IMG/VR virus record: IMGVR_UViG_3300008624_000069
Span: 1 to 23,429 of that record
DNA length: 23,429 nt
Origin: a virus
Reading direction: 5' to 3' (one strand)
Shown here: positions 8,717-23,429 of the stretch, in pieces
Position numbering within the stretch: the stretch's first letter is position 1
Layout of the letters: the number at the start of each line of letters is the position of its first letter
Notes under the pieces: model-generated
Database searches by the model: none
Told to the model about the DNA's origin: nothing
Seen by the model: only the letters and a program-made list of their open reading frames with translations
Position numbers and translations under genes: made by a program

Positions 8717-8748
8717 AAAGGGGACCTGGAATTAACCAGATCCCCTTT
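8717..8748 (-). terminator. Rho-independent terminator between convergent gene blocks
   Basis: AAAGGGGA-C-CTGG pairs with CCAG-A-TCCCCTTT around the loop aattaa (one mismatch). Read on the minus strand the stem is followed by seven T residues (the A-run 8713-8719), the classic shape ending the minus-strand operon. On the plus strand only TTT follows, so it may stop late transcripts more weakly. It sits exactly where plus- and minus-strand genes meet. Confidence 0.8.
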
Positions 8749-8912: not shown

Positions 8913-9059
8913 TTATTGTTGTGGAGATGGTGCTAATGCCGTATCAATAATATAACTGAATATAAAACCATCAAATAATAATACTGATGCGACAATAATG
9001 TATGGAAGTAAAAAGTACATTGCTGTACCGACTAGCGTAATGGTTAATAAAATTTTCAT
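8913..9059 (-). CDS. Tiny hydrophobic membrane protein
   Basis: 48 aa, MKILLTITLVGTAMYFLLPY then IIVASVLLFDGFIFSYIIDT and ALAPSPQQ. One or two membrane helices with a short polar tail. Its ATG overlaps the preceding stop (ATGA), suggesting coupling; an independent binding site is weak. Function unknown. Confidence 0.5.
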   Translation of the reverse strand: MKILLTITLVGTAMYFLLPYIIVASVLLFDGFIFSYIIDTALAPSPQQ

Positions 9060-9181
9060 ATCTTAAATAGTATAATGACCTGGATTATTAAAACCAGAAT
9101 CGGTACGATTGTGCGCACCAGTTCCATTGTATGATTACAGTTATCAAGTGCTAATTCTAATTTTGTTTTGTTGTTAATCAT
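9056..9181 (-). CDS. Small C-terminally anchored membrane protein
   Basis: 41 aa from the ATG at 9181, chosen over longer upstream starts because AGGAG lies 6 nt before it and the longer form would run through the previous gene. MINNKTKLELALDNCNHTME is polar; VRTIVPILVLIIQVIILFKI is one long hydrophobic helix. The stop overlaps the next ATG. Function unknown. Confidence 0.5.
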   Translation of the reverse strand: MINNKTKLELALDNCNHTMELVRTIVPILVLIIQVIILFKI

Positions 9182-9182
9182 A

Positions 9183-9377
9183 TTAAACTCCTGTTTTATT
9201 TTTGATCTCATAATTGTAAGTGTTTGGTAACGATTGAATGTAACGTAACATTGATGGTTCGTCAAACTGCGTTTCCAATAAAGACAACCGGTGTGAGTCA
9301 ATAAGCTTGACTACTTTATACATATCTTTACCATAGACTTTTTTATCTTTAATTTTTTCTATCATTAATTTCGGCAT
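9183..9377 (-). CDS. Small unknown early protein
   Basis: 64 aa, basic at the start (MPKLMIEKIKDKKVYGKDMY) with a mixed C-terminal half (DSHRLSLLETQFDEPSMLRY, IQSLPNTYNYEIKNKTGV). GGAG lies 8 nt upstream of the start and the stop is 1 nt before the next ATG. No domain recognised. Soluble, likely cytoplasmic. Confidence 0.6.
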   Translation of the reverse strand: MPKLMIEKIKDKKVYGKDMYKVVKLIDSHRLSLLETQFDEPSMLRYIQSLPNTYNYEIKNKTGV

Positions 9378-9379
9378 TC

Positions 9380-9586
9380 TTATTCTCCGTATTTTGAAAG
9401 TTCGTTAATTTGATCTATTGTCATGTCGTTAATCTCATCTATAATATGAGATACATGCCAAAGGTGTCCACCTGGACATTCGTAATGATCTGGTGCTACA
9501 TATTCAAAACCATTCATTAGAATGTATTTTTCTACTAGGGCCTCATCGGCCCAATTTTCATTTTTTGATTGTTTGAAAGTTATCAT
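9380..9586 (-). CDS. Small unknown early protein, acidic
   Basis: 68 aa with AGGAG about 9 nt upstream. The middle holds HYECPGGHLWHVSHIIDEIN at 34-53, a histidine- and cysteine-containing patch (one Cys, four His) that could bind a metal but is not a known zinc finger. The C-terminal half is acidic and helical (DEINDMTIDQINELSKYGE). Two nt separate it from the next gene. Function unknown. Confidence 0.6.
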   Translation of the reverse strand: MITFKQSKNENWADEALVEKYILMNGFEYVAPDHYECPGGHLWHVSHIIDEINDMTIDQINELSKYGE

Positions 9587-9589
9587 ATA

Positions 9590-9793
9590 TTATTCTCCTA
9601 ATTGTGATTTATACATATTGCGTTCGTGTTCTCTTTCAAGATAAAGTTGAAAGTCCCCGATGGTGTAAACACCATACTCGGCCCAATGATCTGGGTCGTT
9701 TGTTAAGAAACCATTTGCTCCACGATCTCTAGTATCTTGGTTTAGTTTATTAATGTGGTTTACTAAATCGTTTGTGTAATGAGCTCCAGCCAT
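9590..9793 (-). CDS. Small unknown early protein
   Basis: 67 aa, MAGAHYTNDLVNHINKLNQD at the start, then RDRGANGFLTNDPDHWAEYG and a helical end (FQLYLEREHERNMYKSQLGE). GAGG is 7 nt upstream, inside the end of the preceding gene; the start overlaps that stop by one base (TAATG). No family recognised. It is soluble and packed tightly like the rest of the operon. Confidence 0.6.
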   Translation of the reverse strand: MAGAHYTNDLVNHINKLNQDTRDRGANGFLTNDPDHWAEYGVYTIGDFQLYLEREHERNMYKSQLGE

Positions 9794-10026
9794 TATATTA
9801 CCTCTTTTGTTAGTTTAATTATTTTGTTAATATTGATATGCTCTGAATTGTTTACTTTAATATTTCTGAGAATCCATCGCATATTTAATTCAGTTACTTT
9901 TCGACGCATTAGTGGAATGTCTAAAGTAAGATCATTTAAATGCGTTTGTAAAGTTCTGATCTTAGTTATTCGGTCAGCTTCTGTTCTAAAGATTTGACCT
10001 AATTTAGTTTTGGATATCATTTGCAT
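9793..10026 (-). CDS. Small basic early protein
   Basis: 77 aa from the ATG at 10026, in a TAATG overlap with the preceding stop and with GGAGC upstream. A longer form from 10044 would run into the preceding gene and has no better site. The product is basic and helical (MQMISKTKLGQIFRTEADRI, then MRRKVTELNMRWILRNIKVN), without cysteines or membrane segments. It could bind nucleic acid on charge alone; function unknown. Confidence 0.6.
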   Translation of the reverse strand: MQMISKTKLGQIFRTEADRITKIRTLQTHLNDLTLDIPLMRRKVTELNMRWILRNIKVNNSEHININKIIKLTKEVI

Positions 10027-10472
10027 TATCTTGCTCCGCTCCATACTGTTTTATAATTCGGATAATCTGGATTTGGTTTCGTTACATTATCCATTGTGCC
10101 TAGTCGAATGTTACCGACTGACTGTTTTGTTTCGGCCTGATTCCAAGAACGTGCTTTTAATAAATCGCCTTGAGAAAAATAGTTACCGCCGTTCATACCA
10201 TGCGTGCAAACAACTGTATCATTCTCACGAACAACAAAGCCCCATACTGATTTTTGACCCCACTTGTCAACTGTATAGATTTTGATGTATTTGCTATTCA
10301 CTTTATAAGTGATGCCATCTTTAAATTCTTTTGCCTGAACATCTCGGGCATAACTATCGTTATAGTTGCCATCATGCATTTTAATAGAATCTGACCAACG
10401 ATAATAATTCTCAATAATTTCACAGATCAAAAATTCGACTGAATGTTCTAAATTTGTTTTTGTTTTATTCAT
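10026..10472 (-). CDS. Unknown early protein, paralogue A (VWGFVV / YPNY / WSGA)
   Basis: 148 aa with GGAG about 12 nt upstream. Its C-terminal half matches the product of 11039-11482: shared pieces in order are G....SKY..I, VWGFVV (76-81), NDT, F..GD.L (about 99-105), VGN, P...YPNY (137-140) and W-S/A-GA at the end. The N-terminal half (LEHSVEFLICEIIENYYRWS, HDGNYNDSYARDVQAKEF) also carries a Y-x-x-W region like its sister. No enzyme motif was recognised. Two copies in one operon point to gene duplication or repeated acquisition and a role worth keeping in more than one form. Soluble. Confidence 0.68.
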   Translation of the reverse strand: MNKTKTNLEHSVEFLICEIIENYYRWSDSIKMHDGNYNDSYARDVQAKEFKDGITYKVNSKYIKIYTVDKWGQKSVWGFVVRENDTVVCTHGMNGGNYFSQGDLLKARSWNQAETKQSVGNIRLGTMDNVTKPNPDYPNYKTVWSGAR

Positions 10473-10474
10473 TA

Positions 10475-10771
10475 TTATAAATTCTCCATTTCGTGATGAG
10501 TTTCAAAAGCTTCACCAGCCAATTCATCATTATGAAAAGACCAAGATTCAAAATTATCTGGAAACGCCAAACCATAATACTTGCGAGAGTAACCAGTATC
10601 ATGAGCCCAATGAGTCAAAATATTAGAACCACAAAGCCAATGCTCATTGCCATTTGGTGAAACAATATAAGCAGAACAATTCTTAACAAAGTATTTAAGA
10701 TACTCTGCCCGAGATGTTTTATTAAACATCTCAATTTCTTTTAATGTATCGTCTTTAATCATCATAGTCAT
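10475..10771 (-). CDS. Unknown early protein with C-terminal acidic tail
   Basis: 98 aa from the ATG at 10771, which overlaps the preceding stop (TAATG) and has GGAG about 10 nt upstream; an ATG at 10786 is within the previous gene. Sequence features: helical basic start (MTMMIKDDTLKEIEMFNKTS), CSAYIVSPNGNEHWLCGSNI in the middle with two cysteines, and SWSFHNDELAGEAFETHHEM at the acidic end. No family recognised. Confidence 0.6.
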   Translation of the reverse strand: MTMMIKDDTLKEIEMFNKTSRAEYLKYFVKNCSAYIVSPNGNEHWLCGSNILTHWAHDTGYSRKYYGLAFPDNFESWSFHNDELAGEAFETHHEMENL

Positions 10772-11013
10772 TATGCGTTGCTCCATACGTTATAAGTTTT
10801 TTCTGAACTATATATGCGAGAGATTAAAACACGAATTTCGTTTTTATCCATATCGTTAATATAAGATTCAATTTCATTTTCATCATACCACATATCTTTA
10901 TCGTTTGGATTTTTCCATACGCGATAACGATTGTGTGGATTTTTCATTTCTATTAAATTGTACATATCCACATATGCGTTTACTAAAAGTTTTATTTGAT
11001 TTTTGTTATACAT
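10771..11013 (-). CDS. Unknown early protein, Asn/Tyr/Asp rich
   Basis: 80 aa. N-terminal helix (MYNKNQIKLLVNAYVDMYNL), then NPHNRYRVWKNPNDKDMWYD and an acidic helix (ENEIESYINDMDKNEIRVLI). A weak purine-rich site (GAAAGAAA) precedes the start. The end codes VWSNA and carries, in the same bases, the GGAG used by the next gene. Soluble, no known domain. Confidence 0.6.
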   Translation of the reverse strand: MYNKNQIKLLVNAYVDMYNLIEMKNPHNRYRVWKNPNDKDMWYDENEIESYINDMDKNEIRVLISRIYSSEKTYNVWSNA

Positions 11014-11038
11014 TTTTTTCTTTCGTTAAAGTTTAAAT

Positions 11039-11482
11039 TTACCAGATGTCGGCGCCTGCCCAACAATCTGTATAGTTTGGATAATGAGAATTTGGCTGTC
11101 CAAGATTCGCTGTATTGCCATCCAAAACATTACCAACTTTTTCATAATTGCGAGTCAAGATGTCACCACGTTTAAAAGTTTCAGTATCATTCTTTACAAC
11201 AAAGCCCCAAACGTGTTTATCTTTATGAGCCGTTTTATACATCTTAGAATTTTTCTGATCTATAATAGAATTACAACCAGATTTTTGAGATGCTTCGATA
11301 CGAAAATATTTTGAACCAACAAACACACCAAAACCATGTCCGAAATTTCGGCTCTCAATACAATACTCTTTAGTATCTGTTACACAGCCCAACCAACCAT
11401 GATAGTTTTTATTGATTGCGTTTGAGAGTCCAATAACTTCCCATTTTAAGTTCATTTTTTTAACTTTGTTTTTCATGTTCAT
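11039..11482 (-). CDS. Unknown early protein, paralogue B; first gene of the long early operon
   Basis: 147 aa from the ATG at 11482. An upstream ATG at 11524 is rejected because it coincides with the expected transcription start of the promoter at 11531-11559, while AAGGAC lies 6 nt before 11482. Seen: HGWLGCVTDTKEYCIESRNF, SKYFRIEASQKSGC, HVWGFVVKNDTETFKRGDIL and SHYPNYTDCWAGADIW, matching paralogue A (10026-10472) through the C-terminal half and at almost equal length. Five cysteines are present. No known fold was recognised. As the first gene after a strong promoter it should be abundantly expressed early. Confidence 0.68.
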   Translation of the reverse strand: MNMKNKVKKMNLKWEVIGLSNAINKNYHGWLGCVTDTKEYCIESRNFGHGFGVFVGSKYFRIEASQKSGCNSIIDQKNSKMYKTAHKDKHVWGFVVKNDTETFKRGDILTRNYEKVGNVLDGNTANLGQPNSHYPNYTDCWAGADIW

Positions 11483-11530
11483 TTTTAAGTCCTTATTTGA
11501 TTTAATGTTATTTCTTATTTTCATACTACT

Positions 11531-11559
11531 ATTATAGCAGCCTTTTCTATAGAAGTCAA
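11531..11559 (-). promoter_or_regulatory. Sigma70-type promoter A for the long early operon
   Basis: On the minus strand: -35 TTGACT (11559-11554), 17-nt spacer, -10 TATAAT (11536-11531). Five of six and six of six bases match the bacterial consensus. An A/T-rich AAATAAA lies directly upstream of the -35. The start of transcription should be near 11524, giving a leader of about 40 nt to the first gene. Confidence 0.85.
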
Positions 11560-11639
11560 ATTTATTTGCATATGTAAGTCGTTGTTTTGTAACGACTTAT
11601 GGACAATCGACCGAGCCCTTTGTTTATGGTAGTTTACAG
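11531..11639 (-). repeat. Repeated early-promoter module, copy A
   Basis: 109-bp module aligned without gaps to 12758-12866; by eye 73 of 109 positions agree. Conserved blocks are the -10, the -35 with upstream AAATAAA, GTAAGTC (plus-strand 11574-11580), CGACCGAGCCCTTT (11608-11621) and ATGG...TTACAG (11626-11639). Unconserved stretches are the spacer and part of the region between blocks. A 9-bp hairpin (TAAGTCGTT/AACGACTTA, 11575-11599) lies inside. The gap 11483-11681 holds this module and no convincing gene. Confidence 0.75.
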
Positions 11640-11681
11640 AGTTTCTGATAACGCTAACCATTGTTTTATAAGGGCTTACAG

Positions 11682-11963
11682 TCATATTGATAACGCCATC
11701 TTTGCAAGTCCAAAGAGGGCAATCGCAATTACTATGCAATTTAATGCGATTAAATTAACACTATTGCGCAACCATGCGTTGATGATATGGAGTGAAGAGC
11801 CAACTATCTGAATTAAGAATATAGTTAAGATAGAAACGGACTCGCCGTACCATGCCATTAATACATAGATTAAGATGAAACAAACGGATCCGACTGTTTC
11901 ACAGAACAGCCTGAATCGGTTGTTTTTCCAATCGTCTTTTAACCAGTTTATAATTTTCTTCAT
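11682..11963 (-). CDS. Three-span small membrane protein
   Basis: 93 aa. Basic start MKKIINWLKDDWKNNRFRLF, then three hydrophobic segments at about 21-39 (CETVGSVCFILIYVLMAWYG), 43-64 (VSILTIFLIQIVGSSLHIIN) and 70-91 (NLIALNCIVIAIALFGLAKM). The N-terminal pattern, Lys-rich start plus NWLK-DWKN and F-R, resembles a small membrane protein found in several marine T4-like phages (recalled similarity, not searched). Its ATG overlaps the preceding stop. Last gene of the shorter early operon. Function unknown. Confidence 0.62.
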   Translation of the reverse strand: MKKIINWLKDDWKNNRFRLFCETVGSVCFILIYVLMAWYGESVSILTIFLIQIVGSSLHIINAWLRNSVNLIALNCIVIAIALFGLAKMALSI

Positions 11964-12196
11964 TTTACTAAATATTGTTTAATGTTTTTTGGTAGAAAAA
12001 TTTGAGTAATCCAATACAAATGATTTTTCTGTTTTACTGCGTGTTTTGCAAAAGCTTTTCGTTGCTTTTCTGATACAGTAAAAATGATTGTATCTTTGTC
12101 AATATCATAACCATTGACAAAATGATCTTCCAATTCAAACGCATCTCCGATGCGGTCAAATTGGGCTCTTGGAATTTCAAGTTTATAAGTTTCCAT
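11960..12196 (-). CDS. Small unknown early protein
   Basis: 78 aa: METYKLEIPRAQFDRIGDAF, then HFVNGYDIDKDTIIFTVSEK and a basic helix QRKAFAKHAVKQKNHLYWIT. A beta-alpha pattern in a small soluble protein. The start shares a base with the preceding stop (TAATG), so translation is probably coupled. No family recognised. Confidence 0.6.
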   Translation of the reverse strand: METYKLEIPRAQFDRIGDAFELEDHFVNGYDIDKDTIIFTVSEKQRKAFAKHAVKQKNHLYWITQIFLPKNIKQYLVK

Positions 12197-12462
12197 TATA
12201 CAGATACGCCTTTCACAAAGTTGTCAATTTCAGATTGCGGAACCATCTGTATTATATCAGATAGATTAGCGATCCAATTATTAATATGTTTAGAAGTTGT
12301 GCGAGAATACTTTTCAGTTGTTACACAAACTCTAGTTTGCTTTTTGCCTAAATGCATTGCTTCAGTAATAATACAAACTGGCGTTTCGTATGAGAAAAAG
12401 ATTTGCGTTCCATCTTCTAACTGTAATTCCGTTTGGTTTGCACCGATTAATTTTAATTTCAT
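12196..12462 (-). CDS. Small conserved-type protein (FFSYETPV / TSKHINNW motif)
   Basis: 88 aa with GGAG about 7 nt upstream. MKLKLIGANQTELQLEDGTQ then IFFSYETPVC at 26-35, and TSKHINNW at 56-63. This combination of a short beta sheet (FFSYxTPV) and a C-terminal T-x-KHIN-x-W motif recalls a widespread small phage/bacterial protein family of unknown function; I cannot name it with certainty. Soluble, cytoplasmic. Its place in an early operon is in line with such accessory genes. Confidence 0.62.
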   Translation of the reverse strand: MKLKLIGANQTELQLEDGTQIFFSYETPVCIITEAMHLGKKQTRVCVTTEKYSRTTSKHINNWIANLSDIIQMVPQSEIDNFVKGVSV

Positions 12463-12475
12463 ATTATACTCCGAT

Positions 12476-12556
12476 TTATAAAAACATCATTAAAAAGGCC
12501 ATTAAACAAATCAACAACAATACTAATATATCTGTTAGAATTTCTTTAATAGTCAT
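12476..12556 (-). CDS. Very small membrane peptide
   Basis: 26 aa, MTIKEILTDILVLLLICLMA then FLMMFL: one hydrophobic helix after a short polar start. It begins 1 nt after the preceding stop without its own binding site, so it depends on coupling if translated. Listed because it fills the only gap in an otherwise packed operon. Confidence 0.4.
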   Translation of the reverse strand: MTIKEILTDILVLLLICLMAFLMMFL

Positions 12557-12557
12557 A

Positions 12558-12713
12558 TTATTCACATTGACCCCAACGTGCGTTTTTAGAGCCCTTTGCT
12601 TTTCGTGTTGGACACTTAATAAAGCCTCCATTTTTTTTGAGTTTTTTCAACTCTTTTTCTGTTACCATATTATTGGTAACTACTGCTCCCCAATTTTGTG
12701 CTTTAATTTCCAT
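12558..12713 (-). CDS. Small basic early protein, first gene of the short early operon
   Basis: 51 aa: MEIKAQNWGAVVTNNMVTEK, then ELKKLKKNGGFIKCPTRKAK and GSKNARWGQCE, with two cysteines (C34, C50) and many lysines. GAGG precedes the ATG by 8-9 nt. The leader from promoter B is about 40 nt. The basic charge and small size suit nucleic-acid or ribosome binding, but no family is recognised. Confidence 0.6.
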   Translation of the reverse strand: MEIKAQNWGAVVTNNMVTEKELKKLKKNGGFIKCPTRKAKGSKNARWGQCE

Positions 12714-12757
12714 TTATTAATCCTCAATTTTTATTATTAATCATTAAATACAATACT

Positions 12758-12786
12758 AGTATAGCAAAATCAATCAAATAAGTCAA
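12758..12786 (-). promoter_or_regulatory. Sigma70-type promoter B for the short early operon
   Basis: On the minus strand: -35 TTGACT (12786-12781), 17-nt spacer, -10 TATACT (12763-12758), with AAATAAA just upstream of the -35 as in promoter A. Five of six bases match consensus in both boxes. It points toward the 51-aa gene at 12713. Confidence 0.82.
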
Positions 12787-12866
12787 ATTTATTTTGGCTT
12801 GTAAGTCATTGATTTATTGGCAGTTACAAACAAACGACCGAGCCCTTTAAAAATGGGGACTTACAG
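12758..12866 (-). repeat. Repeated early-promoter module, copy B
   Basis: Second copy of the 109-bp module at 11531-11639. Offsets are identical: CGACCGAGCCCTTT begins 77 bp from the first base of the -10 in both, and the ATGG...TTACAG block 18 bp further. GTAAGTC occurs at 12801-12807 and again in the hairpin at the outer end. The gap 12714-12941 holds this module, a hairpin and a late promoter box, and no convincing gene. Confidence 0.75.
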
Positions 12867-12886
12867 CGTTGAAAATCTGTAAGTCC
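12857..12886. repeat. Ten-bp perfect hairpin between divergent promoters
   Basis: GGACTTACAG (12857-12866) and CTGTAAGTCC (12877-12886) pair perfectly around a 10-nt loop. It overlaps the outer end of module B and lies 34 nt before the late box of the rightward genes. On the minus strand it is followed by CCCATTTTTA, so it may also terminate leftward read-through. An operator for a dimeric protein is the other possibility. Confidence 0.6.
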
Positions 12887-12920
12887 TTGTAAACAAAGGA
12901 GTTGCCATTTCCACAGATAT

Positions 12921-12928
12921 TATAAATA
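12921..12928 (+). promoter_or_regulatory. T4-type late promoter box
   Basis: TATAAATA, an exact match to the T4 late -10 consensus, 13 nt before the ATG at 12942 and after a region with divergent promoters. It is the expected start of the rightward late block. Confidence 0.65.
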
Positions 12929-12941
12929 TCACAAAAAGGCT

Positions 12942-13388
12942 ATGCTTTTATCAAAAGAGATCGAAAAATGGCGATCAAAACCAACATATAAAGAGCCATC
13001 GAAAATCCATTGGTTTGTTTGGCTTCTGGAAAATCCAAAAAGTCCCATTAGTTTGACAGGAGCAATAGACCTTTATAACCATGATATTATCCATATCTTG
13101 TTAGAGCGTGGTATGGAAGTCAAAGATGAAGCTTCTGTAATTGGATTTACTATGGGCAATAGTGAAACTACCAGTTCCTGGGTCCGATGGTTATTTGAGT
13201 TTTGTGCAAGATACCTATATCCAGAGGGGTATCGTTTTAGTGAAGATGATTTGGTGGAATTTGAAATGGGGTATGCATATGGATATACCAGACCCAAGCG
13301 TAATATTCATCTGGCCATTTTTGATGTTCAGAAAGATGTGGAAGAAATACGAAAAGAATGGGATATAGAACTTATAAATAATAGATAG
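12942..13388 (+). CDS. Unknown protein, first gene of the rightward late block
   Basis: 148 aa with AAGG near the start. No known domain was recognised. Visible pieces: KIHWFVWLLENPKSPISLTG, HDIIHILLERGMEVKDEASV, IGFTMGNSETTSSWVRWLFE, FCARYLYPEGYRFSEDDLVE. The region GFTMGNS followed by W..WLF...AR.LYP.GYRF looks like a conserved core, and the product is tryptophan-rich and soluble. A late box lies directly upstream. It is followed by the nucleotidase-like gene, which has its own late box inside the end of this gene. Confidence 0.6.
   Translation: MLLSKEIEKWRSKPTYKEPSKIHWFVWLLENPKSPISLTGAIDLYNHDIIHILLERGMEVKDEASVIGFTMGNSETTSSWVRWLFEFCARYLYPEGYRFSEDDLVEFEMGYAYGYTRPKRNIHLAIFDVQKDVEEIRKEWDIELINNR
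13373..13380 (+). promoter_or_regulatory. T4-type late promoter box within the end of a gene
   Basis: TATAAATA lies in the last codons of the upstream gene, 17 nt before the ATG at 13398, with GAGGAG between. Exact matches are rare enough in this window, and their placement before starts consistent enough, to suggest function. Confidence 0.5.
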
Positions 13389-13397
13389 AGGAGAACT

Positions 13398-13871
13398 ATG
13401 GCAAAAATATTTTGTGACATGGATGGGGTACTGGTAGATTTGCTTGGTAGTATCAAGAGGCATCTTGGAACGACTAAATTGAATCAGGGACTAATTGACG
13501 ATTTCTTTTATAGTGAAGCTGGAACTGGTACGGAGTTTTGGGCTAATTGTGGATGGGAGTCTGGTGGTAAACAACTCTGGAAATTCATCAAATCATATAA
13601 GCCTCAAATACTATCTGCTTGTCCATCTGTTTGTAATAAAGATAAGGCAGTAATAAAAGGCAAGACCCTCTGGTGTGAGAAGAATCTCGGTATTCCAAAA
13701 AGTCAGGTCAATATCGTACAACGCAGAGAGAAGCAGAACTTTGCCGGTAAAGATATAATCTTAATTGACGATCATAAAAAGAACATAAGAGAATGGGAGA
13801 GTGCTGGTGGAACAGGTGTTCTTCATGTAAATGTTAGAACTACAATTAAACAACTGAAAGGGTTAATTTAA
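13398..13871 (+). CDS. HAD-superfamily phosphatase, 5'(3')-deoxyribonucleotidase-like
   Basis: 157 aa with a strong GAGGAG site. HAD motif I is CDMDGVLVDL near the start (D7 nucleophile, D9 acid/base); motif II is ILSACP (S73); a lysine such as K87 or K89 (motif III) follows; motif IV is ILIDDHKKNI with D124 and D125. The GTEFWANCGWESGG cap region and the ID-D-K-N-I-x-EW-x-x-AGG ending resemble 5'(3')-nucleotidases. The expected reaction is dephosphorylation of (deoxy)nucleoside monophosphates; a polynucleotide phosphatase role is an alternative. Cytoplasmic. It overlaps the next gene by one base. Confidence 0.78.
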   Translation: MAKIFCDMDGVLVDLLGSIKRHLGTTKLNQGLIDDFFYSEAGTGTEFWANCGWESGGKQLWKFIKSYKPQILSACPSVCNKDKAVIKGKTLWCEKNLGIPKSQVNIVQRREKQNFAGKDIILIDDHKKNIREWESAGGTGVLHVNVRTTIKQLKGLI

Positions 13872-20977: not shown

Positions 20978-23429
20978 ATGACAACCAATATAAATTTAAA
21001 TCTTAATCAAAGTCCCTACTTTGATGACTATGATGAAGCGAAAGATTTTCATCAAGTCCTCTATAAACCTGCTGTTGCTATCCAAGCAAGAGAACTTACT
21101 CAAGAGCAAACAATACTAAGAAATCAACTCAAACGATTTGGCGATCATGTATTTGCAAATGGTAGTCGAGTATCGGGTGGTGAATTACACGTTGATACAG
21201 AATATAATTATGTAAAGTTACAAGCTAACTATAATGGTGTTGCAATTACTGCTGCAAATTTAAATGGTAAAACGATTATTGGTAGTCAGTCAGGAACAAT
21301 TGCAAAAGTAGTAAATACTTCTGCTATTAATGCAACTACTGGTGATCCAGACACTTTATGGGTTAAGTATCTTACTGGTGGTGGTCTTACTCAAAAAGTT
21401 CAAGGTATTACTGTAACAAATGCTGGTACAGGCTATACTACGACACCAACTGTTACTATTACAGGTGGTGGTGGAACTGGTGCGACTGCAACTGCTGTTG
21501 TTGGAAATGCAGGAACCTCTGTTGCACAAACAGTTATTGGTATTAATGTTACAGCAAAAGGAAATGGATATACATCTACACCAAGTATATCTATTACTGG
21601 TGGTGGAGGTTCTTCTGCTACTTGTACTGCTACTTTGAATACTGCCGCGGTATTTAATTCAGGTGAACGACTTGTTGCAGATGATTTTTCTTCCGCAGTA
21701 TTTGCTGCATCATCATCTGCAACTGGTAAAGGTTCAGCAGTTTCTAATGATGCAGGTTATTATTATTTTAATGGTAATTTTATACGAGCAGGTGCATCAA
21801 CGGTTATTTTAGATAACTATACAAATACACCATCATATAAAATTGGTTTTCAAGTATCGGCATCTGTAGTTGCTTCTGGTGATGATAGTACATTATTAGA
21901 CAATGCACAGGGAGCCTATAACTATGCAGCTCCAGGTGCAGATCGTTTAAAATACGAACTTACTCTTACTAAGAAATCTATAACATCAACTGATGATACA
22001 GATTTTATAGAAATGATTCGTTTGGTAAATGGTGTTCGTCATGTTGATGTTGAATATCCAGTTTACTCTGTATTAGAAGAAATATTTGCAAGACGAACAT
22101 TTGATGAATCAGGTAACTATACTGTAAGACATTTTCCTATTCAATTAAAAACACATTCTAGTGACGCAACAAAATTTACTGCAAGATTAGATCCGGGTAA
22201 AGCATATGTACAAGGACACGAATTTAGAACATTAATTTCAAGTGATGTTACTGTAGATCGTGCAAGAGATTATACTAATGTAAATGGTTTTGATAGATTG
22301 ATGCAATTTGGTAATTATGCCAAGATAGATAACCTTAGTGGATTTTATGATTTTACAACTGGAACAGAATTTGATATTCACAATGCAGCTCCAGTTTTAA
22401 CTAATCCAACTACATACGCAAATACTAAAATTGGTACAGCAAGAGCTCGTACTATAACTGTAATCGACAGACCAACACCTGCTACACCAACTACTTGGAG
22501 ATATCAATTATTTTTATATGATATTAAAATGACCGGTGGTAATGCATTTGCAGACGCAGAAAGATTTTCAATTCCTGTTAATGCCTCAGCAACACCTGTA
22601 GTTGTATCGACAGAATCAAGAGTAGCTGATGTTGGTAAAGTTGGTGGAGTGAGTGGTGGTGATGCATTATTGTTTGAAACTGATTTTAATACAGCAGTAT
22701 TTAAATTACCACAGAATACGATTAAAACAATTCGTGATGATTCAAGTAATATTGATACTAGTTATACTAAACAAAAAACTTTTGGCTCTGTAACTATTAG
22801 TGCAGGTACTTGTACATTAACATCAAATGGTGCTAATGAAACATTTTATGGAACTGGTGTACTTAGTTCAACTGTTAAAGATACTTATTATCATGCACAA
22901 GATTCAGCAGGAACGAATGTTAATCTTAGTGCAACATCTCCTGCAGCTGCAACTGTTACAGTAGCTGCTAACGGACAATCAGTAACGATCTTTACTGGTG
23001 ATAATTCTTTAAATACGACATTCAATTTTTGGGTAACTATGAATGTTGATACAAAACAAGAACGAATCAAAACGCTTGTTCTGAATAAAGAATTAGCAAT
23101 TGCGTCACCAAATACCACATCATTATCATATGATTCTCTTAATCTGGCTGATGCAACTTTAATTAAAGCAGTTTATGATTCTGGTAATACTGGTACAGAT
23201 GCAACAGCTCCTACATTAACGGTGTCTGGTGCAACTGGAACTTTTATTGCTGGTGAAACTATTACTGGTGGAACGAGTGGTGCAACGGGAACTGTTATTG
23301 CACATAATCCTGCAACGACTATTACATTTGTTGTTACTTCAGGAACTTTTGCAGGCACAGAAACTATTACTGGTACGACACATACTGCAACTATGGTTAG
23401 TCTTGCAGCTGGTGATACAGATATTAAAT
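20978..23429 (+). CDS. Large tail/virion protein, DUF4815-type N-terminus (3' partial)
   Basis: Frame open from ATG 20978 (AAAGG about 9 nt upstream) to the window end, at least 817 codons with no stop, so the gene continues beyond. N-terminus: [40 protein letters not shown], a pattern typical of DUF4815 virion proteins of marine T4-like phages. Residues about 145-220 hold two glycine-rich repeats ([20 protein letters not shown] and [20 protein letters not shown]). The end within the window shows [15 protein letters not shown]-type repeats. It likely forms a baseplate-attached or fibre-related structural protein, next to gp8 as in related phages. Confidence 0.82.

Follow-up and report, generated by a model that had tools for sequence, protein, structure and literature searches.

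Early-promoter cassettes carrying a widely shared palindrome in a T4-like marine phage

The locus and its gene setting

The window, by which we mean the whole stretch of DNA that was analysed, is a genome fragment of 23,429 bases from a T4-like myovirus. On its plus strand lie genes for baseplate wedge and hub proteins, gp25/gp6-like ones among them, for a PAAR protein and for a tail-lysozyme hub protein. Compared on gp25/gp6 DNA, the named phages nearest to it are Pelagibacter phage HTVC008M and Methylophilales phage Melnitz. A block of small genes on the minus strand (~9056-12713) is flanked by late gene clusters; most of its tested members matched no Pfam or PHROGs family. In T4-like phages the small genes for host takeover lie in early regions that change fast. 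The two elements described here, A and B, sit within this variable small-gene cluster among the baseplate genes. The window is included at 99.97% identity in a 59.7-kb IMG/VR contig (G003), which made another 36 kb of what is practically one genome available to the searches.

Several other features surround the small-gene block. A strong 13-pair hairpin (AAAGGGGATCTGG/CCAGGTCCCCTTT) followed by a T-run, at 8717-8748 between the plus-strand cluster and the early cluster on the minus strand, is probably an intrinsic terminator and likely a bidirectional one. The T4-type late promoter -10 sequence, TATAAATA, is restricted to the plus strand within the window; it stands just 5' of a late gene at 12921, 15240, 19592 and 19601, and a fifth occurrence lies at 13373. 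A 5'-3' deoxyribonucleotidase-like gene (PHROG 2643, 13398-13871) is kept in the relatives G001, L101 and L136.

Two promoters with a common upstream architecture

Promoter A (11531-11559, minus strand) is of the sigma70 early type, with TTGACT at 11559-11554, a 17-nt spacer and TATAAT at 11536-11531, giving 11 of 12 consensus bases. Promoter B (12758-12786, minus strand) is of the same type and spacing, with TTGACT at 12786-12781, TATACT at 12763-12758 and 10 of 12 consensus matches. From these promoter sequences we infer that both would be expressed early. The first gene downstream of A (11039-11524, minus strand) encodes 161 aa, and the first downstream of B (12558-12713, minus strand) encodes 51 aa, with 84-86% identity in the relatives G004 and L136. 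The product of 11039-11524 has a diverged paralogue, 29% identical, encoded on the minus strand at 10026-10472; both genes are also found in G004, and in this early cluster gene duplication goes together with promoter duplication.

An earlier sequence-only reading of the window had proposed that two minus-strand sigma70 promoters share one architecture, and both were recovered where it had placed them. Element A extends over 11531-11680 and element B over 12758-12906. When 11553-11643 is aligned with 12780-12870, 65 of 91 positions (71%) are identical without a gap; the runner-up among 91-nt matches in the whole window reaches 43/91, so the likeness of A and B is not due to chance. The smaller motifs of the proposal, namely AAATAAAT ahead of the -35, GTAAGTC and TTACAG, are in register in both elements, and the block described as perfect in both copies, CGACCGAGCCCTT, is indeed exact at 11608 and 12835. 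Taken alone, this 13-mer is weak evidence, because two matches at up to three mismatches were reached in 17 of 100 window shuffles. The block had also been placed 77 bp from the first -10 base; that distance holds when it is counted from the lowest-coordinate -10 base (11531, 12758), and becomes 72 bp in either copy when the count starts at the 5' end of the -10.

A family of 29-nt palindromes

Reading of relatives at the B locus, followed by a core scan, led to the feature that recurs, a family of 29-nt imperfect palindromes with the consensus TGTAAGTCCTTGTAAACAAAGGACTTACA and a second common centre, ATAAAAC. The half-site is approximately TAASYCNTT and is retained independently in both arms around the centre RTAAA.

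Each element holds three units. At A, all on the minus strand, the proximal unit 2 (CATAAGTCGTTACAAAACAACGACTTACA, 11573-11601; profile E 0.008) lies 13 nt upstream of the -35; it is followed by the degenerate unit 1 (TGTAAACTACCATAAACAAAGGGCTCGGT, 11610-11638), a weak unit (profile E 4.3) that holds most of the block, and by the distal unit 0 (TGTAAGCCCTTATAAAACAATGGTTAGCG, 11652-11680; profile E 0.003), the left arm of which can pair with the block. At B, the proximal unit 2 (TGTAACTGCCAATAAATCAATGACTTACA, 12800-12828, minus strand) is likewise 13 nt upstream of the -35; it is degenerate, and was identified by reading and by alignment to A, the profile having made no call there. Unit 1 (TGTAAGTCCCCATTTTTAAAGGGCTCGGT, 12837-12865, minus strand) is also degenerate. 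Unit 0 is inverted (TGTAAGTCCTTGTAAACAAAGGAGTTGCC, 12878-12906, plus strand) and is the top-scoring unit of the family (profile E 1e-6). A GGACTTACAG/CTGTAAGTCC stem spans 12857-12886.

The same palindromes accompany two more sigma70 promoters in G003, TTGTAA-N17-TATAAT from 10495 and TTGTAT-N17-TATAAT from 23237, which brings the total in its 59.7 kb to four cassettes. The suggestion of a shared upstream element with extra copies is therefore borne out by these two promoters, as well as by early promoters of relatives.

Conservation and distribution of the 14-nt block

The block itself, AAAGGGCTCGGTCG on the minus strand, occupies 11608-11621 in A and, by exact match and alignment, 12835-12848 in B (minus strand). 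Three distinct phages supply six copies, which align over 92 columns. Of these columns 51 are invariant, and the longest invariant run, 14 columns, coincides exactly with AAAGGGCTCGGTCG (P = 0.004 by column shuffling); in the same alignment, 14 of 15 columns are invariant in the block versus 37 of 77 elsewhere. The block is thus better conserved than its surroundings, as had been claimed. Block, 29-nt unit and -35 are spaced identically at A and at B in each of the three phages and, as judged by reading of the sequence, in L101. Even in G004, the phage with the greatest divergence between A and B, the 14-mer is preserved, and so is its distance to the -35. We regard this as moderate evidence that the block is under constraint, which falls short of proof because the A and B copies also show signs of exchange.

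Such exchange is central to a simpler explanation, in which A and B are local copies of one promoter region, recombination keeps them alike, and the shared upstream part has no function. Tandem copies of the element in L101 agree with it, as does the base after TTGAC, which A and B of any one phage have in common (TTGACT for the window and for G001, TTGACA for G004), a pattern that gene conversion could yield. However, three phages keep A and B as separate, orthologous elements in which the block is the longest invariant run, and the same palindromes occur at promoters of phages that lack the A/B duplication. We consider simple duplication improbable.

The block is narrowly distributed. When 2.9 million viral contigs were searched for exact matches to CGACCGAGCCCTTTNNNNATGG, only four contained it, always as exactly two copies arranged like A and B, and no further copies at up to two mismatches were found within these four. 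CGACCGAGCCCTTT has no third copy in the 59.7 kb of G003, and in G001, G002, G003 and G004 it occurs at A and B and at no other early promoter. Since the 14-mer exists only as an A/B pair in four contigs, it is not a signal of early operons at large, and the proposal that CGACCGAGCCCTTT is repeated at every early operon does not hold: it is confined to A and B in the window's clade. The search for more copies in the genome and its relatives, which that reading had recommended, succeeded for the flanking palindrome, which recurs at early promoters, but not for CGACCGAGCCCTTT itself. A relaxed GGGCTCGGTCGNTTGT scan gained only unrelated contexts, mostly GC-rich, and the 14-mer was dropped as a general signal. 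It is best described as a clade-specific constrained part of the array, located between two palindromes, with the palindrome as the general signal.

Association of palindromes with promoters in related phages

The module, its further copies and their association with sigma70-like promoters are found across many related phages. The sample comprised 46 dereplicated contigs with 581 kb of related marine phage DNA at a GC content under 37%. An iterated unit profile found 52 units at E<0.1 in these 581 kb, and reversed sequences gave none below 0.23. Although 87% of the DNA is coding, 40 of the 52 units are intergenic, and a promoter scoring at least 10.5 lies within 150 nt of 75% of units versus 7% of random intergenic positions. 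At a score of at least 9.5, 28 distinct promoters are involved; the units stand in the consensus orientation 30 times and in the opposite one 10 times. The distance from palindrome to -35 is fixed in the window's clade and ranges from 9 to 119 nt across phages.

A second pattern, built on the second centre, was found in 25 IMG/VR stretches that reduce to 10 dereplicated AT-rich loci, one of which overlaps the first set (L200 is the same contig as L101). A promoter is near 9 of the 10 at a score of at least 9.5 and near 7 of the 10 at 10.5 or above, compared with 21% and 7% of random positions, respectively. Across IMG/VR the palindrome pattern gave 34 matches and its reversed control 6, so a few matches outside the clade are expected by chance. 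Of the 18 sequences beyond the clade that match the motif's left part, 10 also complete the right-arm TTA, against an expectation of about 1 in 64. In 141 kb of one carrier contig, the strict pattern at up to three mismatches had only 3 matches versus 1 in the control. With BLAST, the 1.9-kb region matched nothing among phage records, and the 31-nt consensus had chance-level matches only in phages and plasmids. The region 11400-13000 matched no Rfam family up to E 1, and a literature search on the palindrome sequence found no paper.

Some occurrences stand apart. For example, tandem palindromes in L157 lie upstream of TTGGCACGGAACTTGCA, which resembles a sigma54 rather than a sigma70 promoter, and in a single bacterial genome (L166 and L167, Candidatus Kapaibacterium) three exact palindromes are embedded in a longer repeat that includes a poly-C run.

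The dyad, an 11-7-11 arrangement with a conserved centre, is also what the core of a tyrosine-recombinase att site looks like, and it could have served mobile elements for site-specific recombination. An exact 25-mer, TAAGTGCTTGTAAACAAAGGAGTTA, starts 3 nt past the 3' end of a tmRNA gene in the planctomycete contig L165 and lies at the same kind of site in another, L164, where ARAGORN called no tmRNA; an Eleftheria plasmid has a near match at a distance of about 300 bp from a gene for a tyrosine recombinase. A strong association with promoters would be unexpected for such a core, however, and a PF00589 integrase was present in none of the 19 viral carriers searched, many of them fragments and G003 included, which leaves this explanation little support. 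We judge it very improbable.

DNA site or RNA structure

Arbiol et al. in 2010 and Comeau et al. in 2014 reportedly treated PeSLs as composite promoter-terminator motifs where genes are exchanged. PeSLs are promoter-early stem-loop cassettes of T4-type phages, an idea cited in PMC4503421. If A and B were true PeSLs, the palindromes would act as RNA stem-loops ending the transcripts of the upstream gene, with the early promoter directly after. Element A and the copies at 10.4 kb and 23.2 kb show the order gene, hairpin, promoter, gene, and at 23196-23198 the stop codon of the upstream gene coincides with the start of the palindrome. In one relative, L163, an intrinsic terminator (CGACC-TACC-GGGTCG-T7) abuts the -35. 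The DNA also folds well as RNA: minimum-free-energy z-scores on the promoter strand are -3.2 to -3.8 at the four G003 loci (-3.2 and -3.3 at A and B), and the mean upstream of 17 promoters is -2.64 versus -0.32 in controls. Unusually stable folding is what any palindrome would give, and a structural role would predict the same.

Other properties of the stems do not fit termination. No U-run follows them, and a terminator scan called none of them. Covariation between the arms was not found in 48 units, with 74.1% paired cells versus 75.9% in shuffles, and arm positions 6/24 and 9/21 are unpaired in 28 and 31 of the 48 sequences; because the units were gathered by sequence, this test is biased against seeing covariation. 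Units are found where neighbouring genes run in one direction and also where they diverge; at the divergent junctions, with about half of the cassettes and B among them, there is no upstream gene to terminate. Arms without covariation suggest that the sequence is kept rather than the helix, and the lack of covariation and of a U-tail, along with the mixed junctions, favours a DNA dyad read by a protein over a terminator. We hold with moderate confidence that the palindrome fits better as a DNA-level dyad for a candidate dimeric protein, and a true PeSL appears to us rather unlikely.

A proposed cassette for early genes and its possible significance

The explanation we prefer, with about as much doubt as confidence, is that A and B are copies of a modular early-promoter cassette, in which the palindromes are candidate sites for a dimeric protein and the cassette serves as a recombination seam. 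Such a cassette consists of a strong host-sigma70 promoter with one to three 29-nt imperfect DNA palindromes upstream. The palindromes would be sequence-specific sites in double-stranded DNA, read by a dimeric phage or host protein, and this would probably modulate or insulate transcription of the small early genes. The cassette, much like a PeSL, may also act as a homologous seam for the gain and loss of early genes.

Gene content around the cassettes bears on this last step. G004 lacks a homologue of the 93-aa gene beside A, its homology ending at window position 11693, and a 90-aa gene after the B leader is present in G004 but absent from L136. Gene indels therefore abut A and B in G004 and L136, yet the breakpoint with G001 (~12190) is away from any cassette. 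At that point identity to G001 steps from 85% to 96%, which likely marks a recombination breakpoint.

It is more doubtful, though worth considering, that TAASYCNTT-RTAAAMM-AANGRSTTA may be the site of an undescribed dimeric regulator, or else a mobile regulatory palindrome, which is common to many marine T4-like phages and some unrelated viruses and bacteria and marks a set of early operons. The cassette may bear on how early regions remain expressible during gene gain and loss. If the promoter-tied palindrome is conserved and searchable, early operons could be found in uncultured marine phages, and the palindrome would offer a defined DNA site in the hunt for a regulator.

Comparison with known systems

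The palindrome has a likeness to the E. coli Ter sites (GTTGTAAC); this reading was dropped because the element is dyadic and present far outside enterobacteria. HTVC008M, a sequenced relative, also has TTGACT-N17-TATAAT promoters ahead of early-type genes. Unlike those studied here, its early promoters lack palindromes of this 29-nt family and are usually without stable upstream folding (mean z -0.76), and neither HTVC008M nor Melnitz has palindrome units above chance.

The early promoters of T4 consist of UP, -35, TGn and -10 elements, as given in a T4 review (PMC2988021). The promoters here resemble that description in their near-consensus -35 and -10, their 17-nt spacing and the A/T-rich DNA just 5' of the -35; they differ in that the palindromes and the 14-mer lie farther upstream than an UP element, and the passages of that review used here describe no such palindrome.

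The closest parallel is with PeSLs. Here, too, a strong sigma70-like early promoter is joined to DNA with adjacent stem-loop potential, multiple copies are present in the variable early region between the core genes of a T4-like phage, and some gene gains and losses abut the cassette edges. In contrast to PeSLs, the palindromes share a specific sequence among many phages, have neither a U-tail nor covariation, and often lie at divergent junctions. We would therefore file the element as a PeSL-like variant, in which a terminator role is putative and the widely shared palindrome is the distinguishing part.
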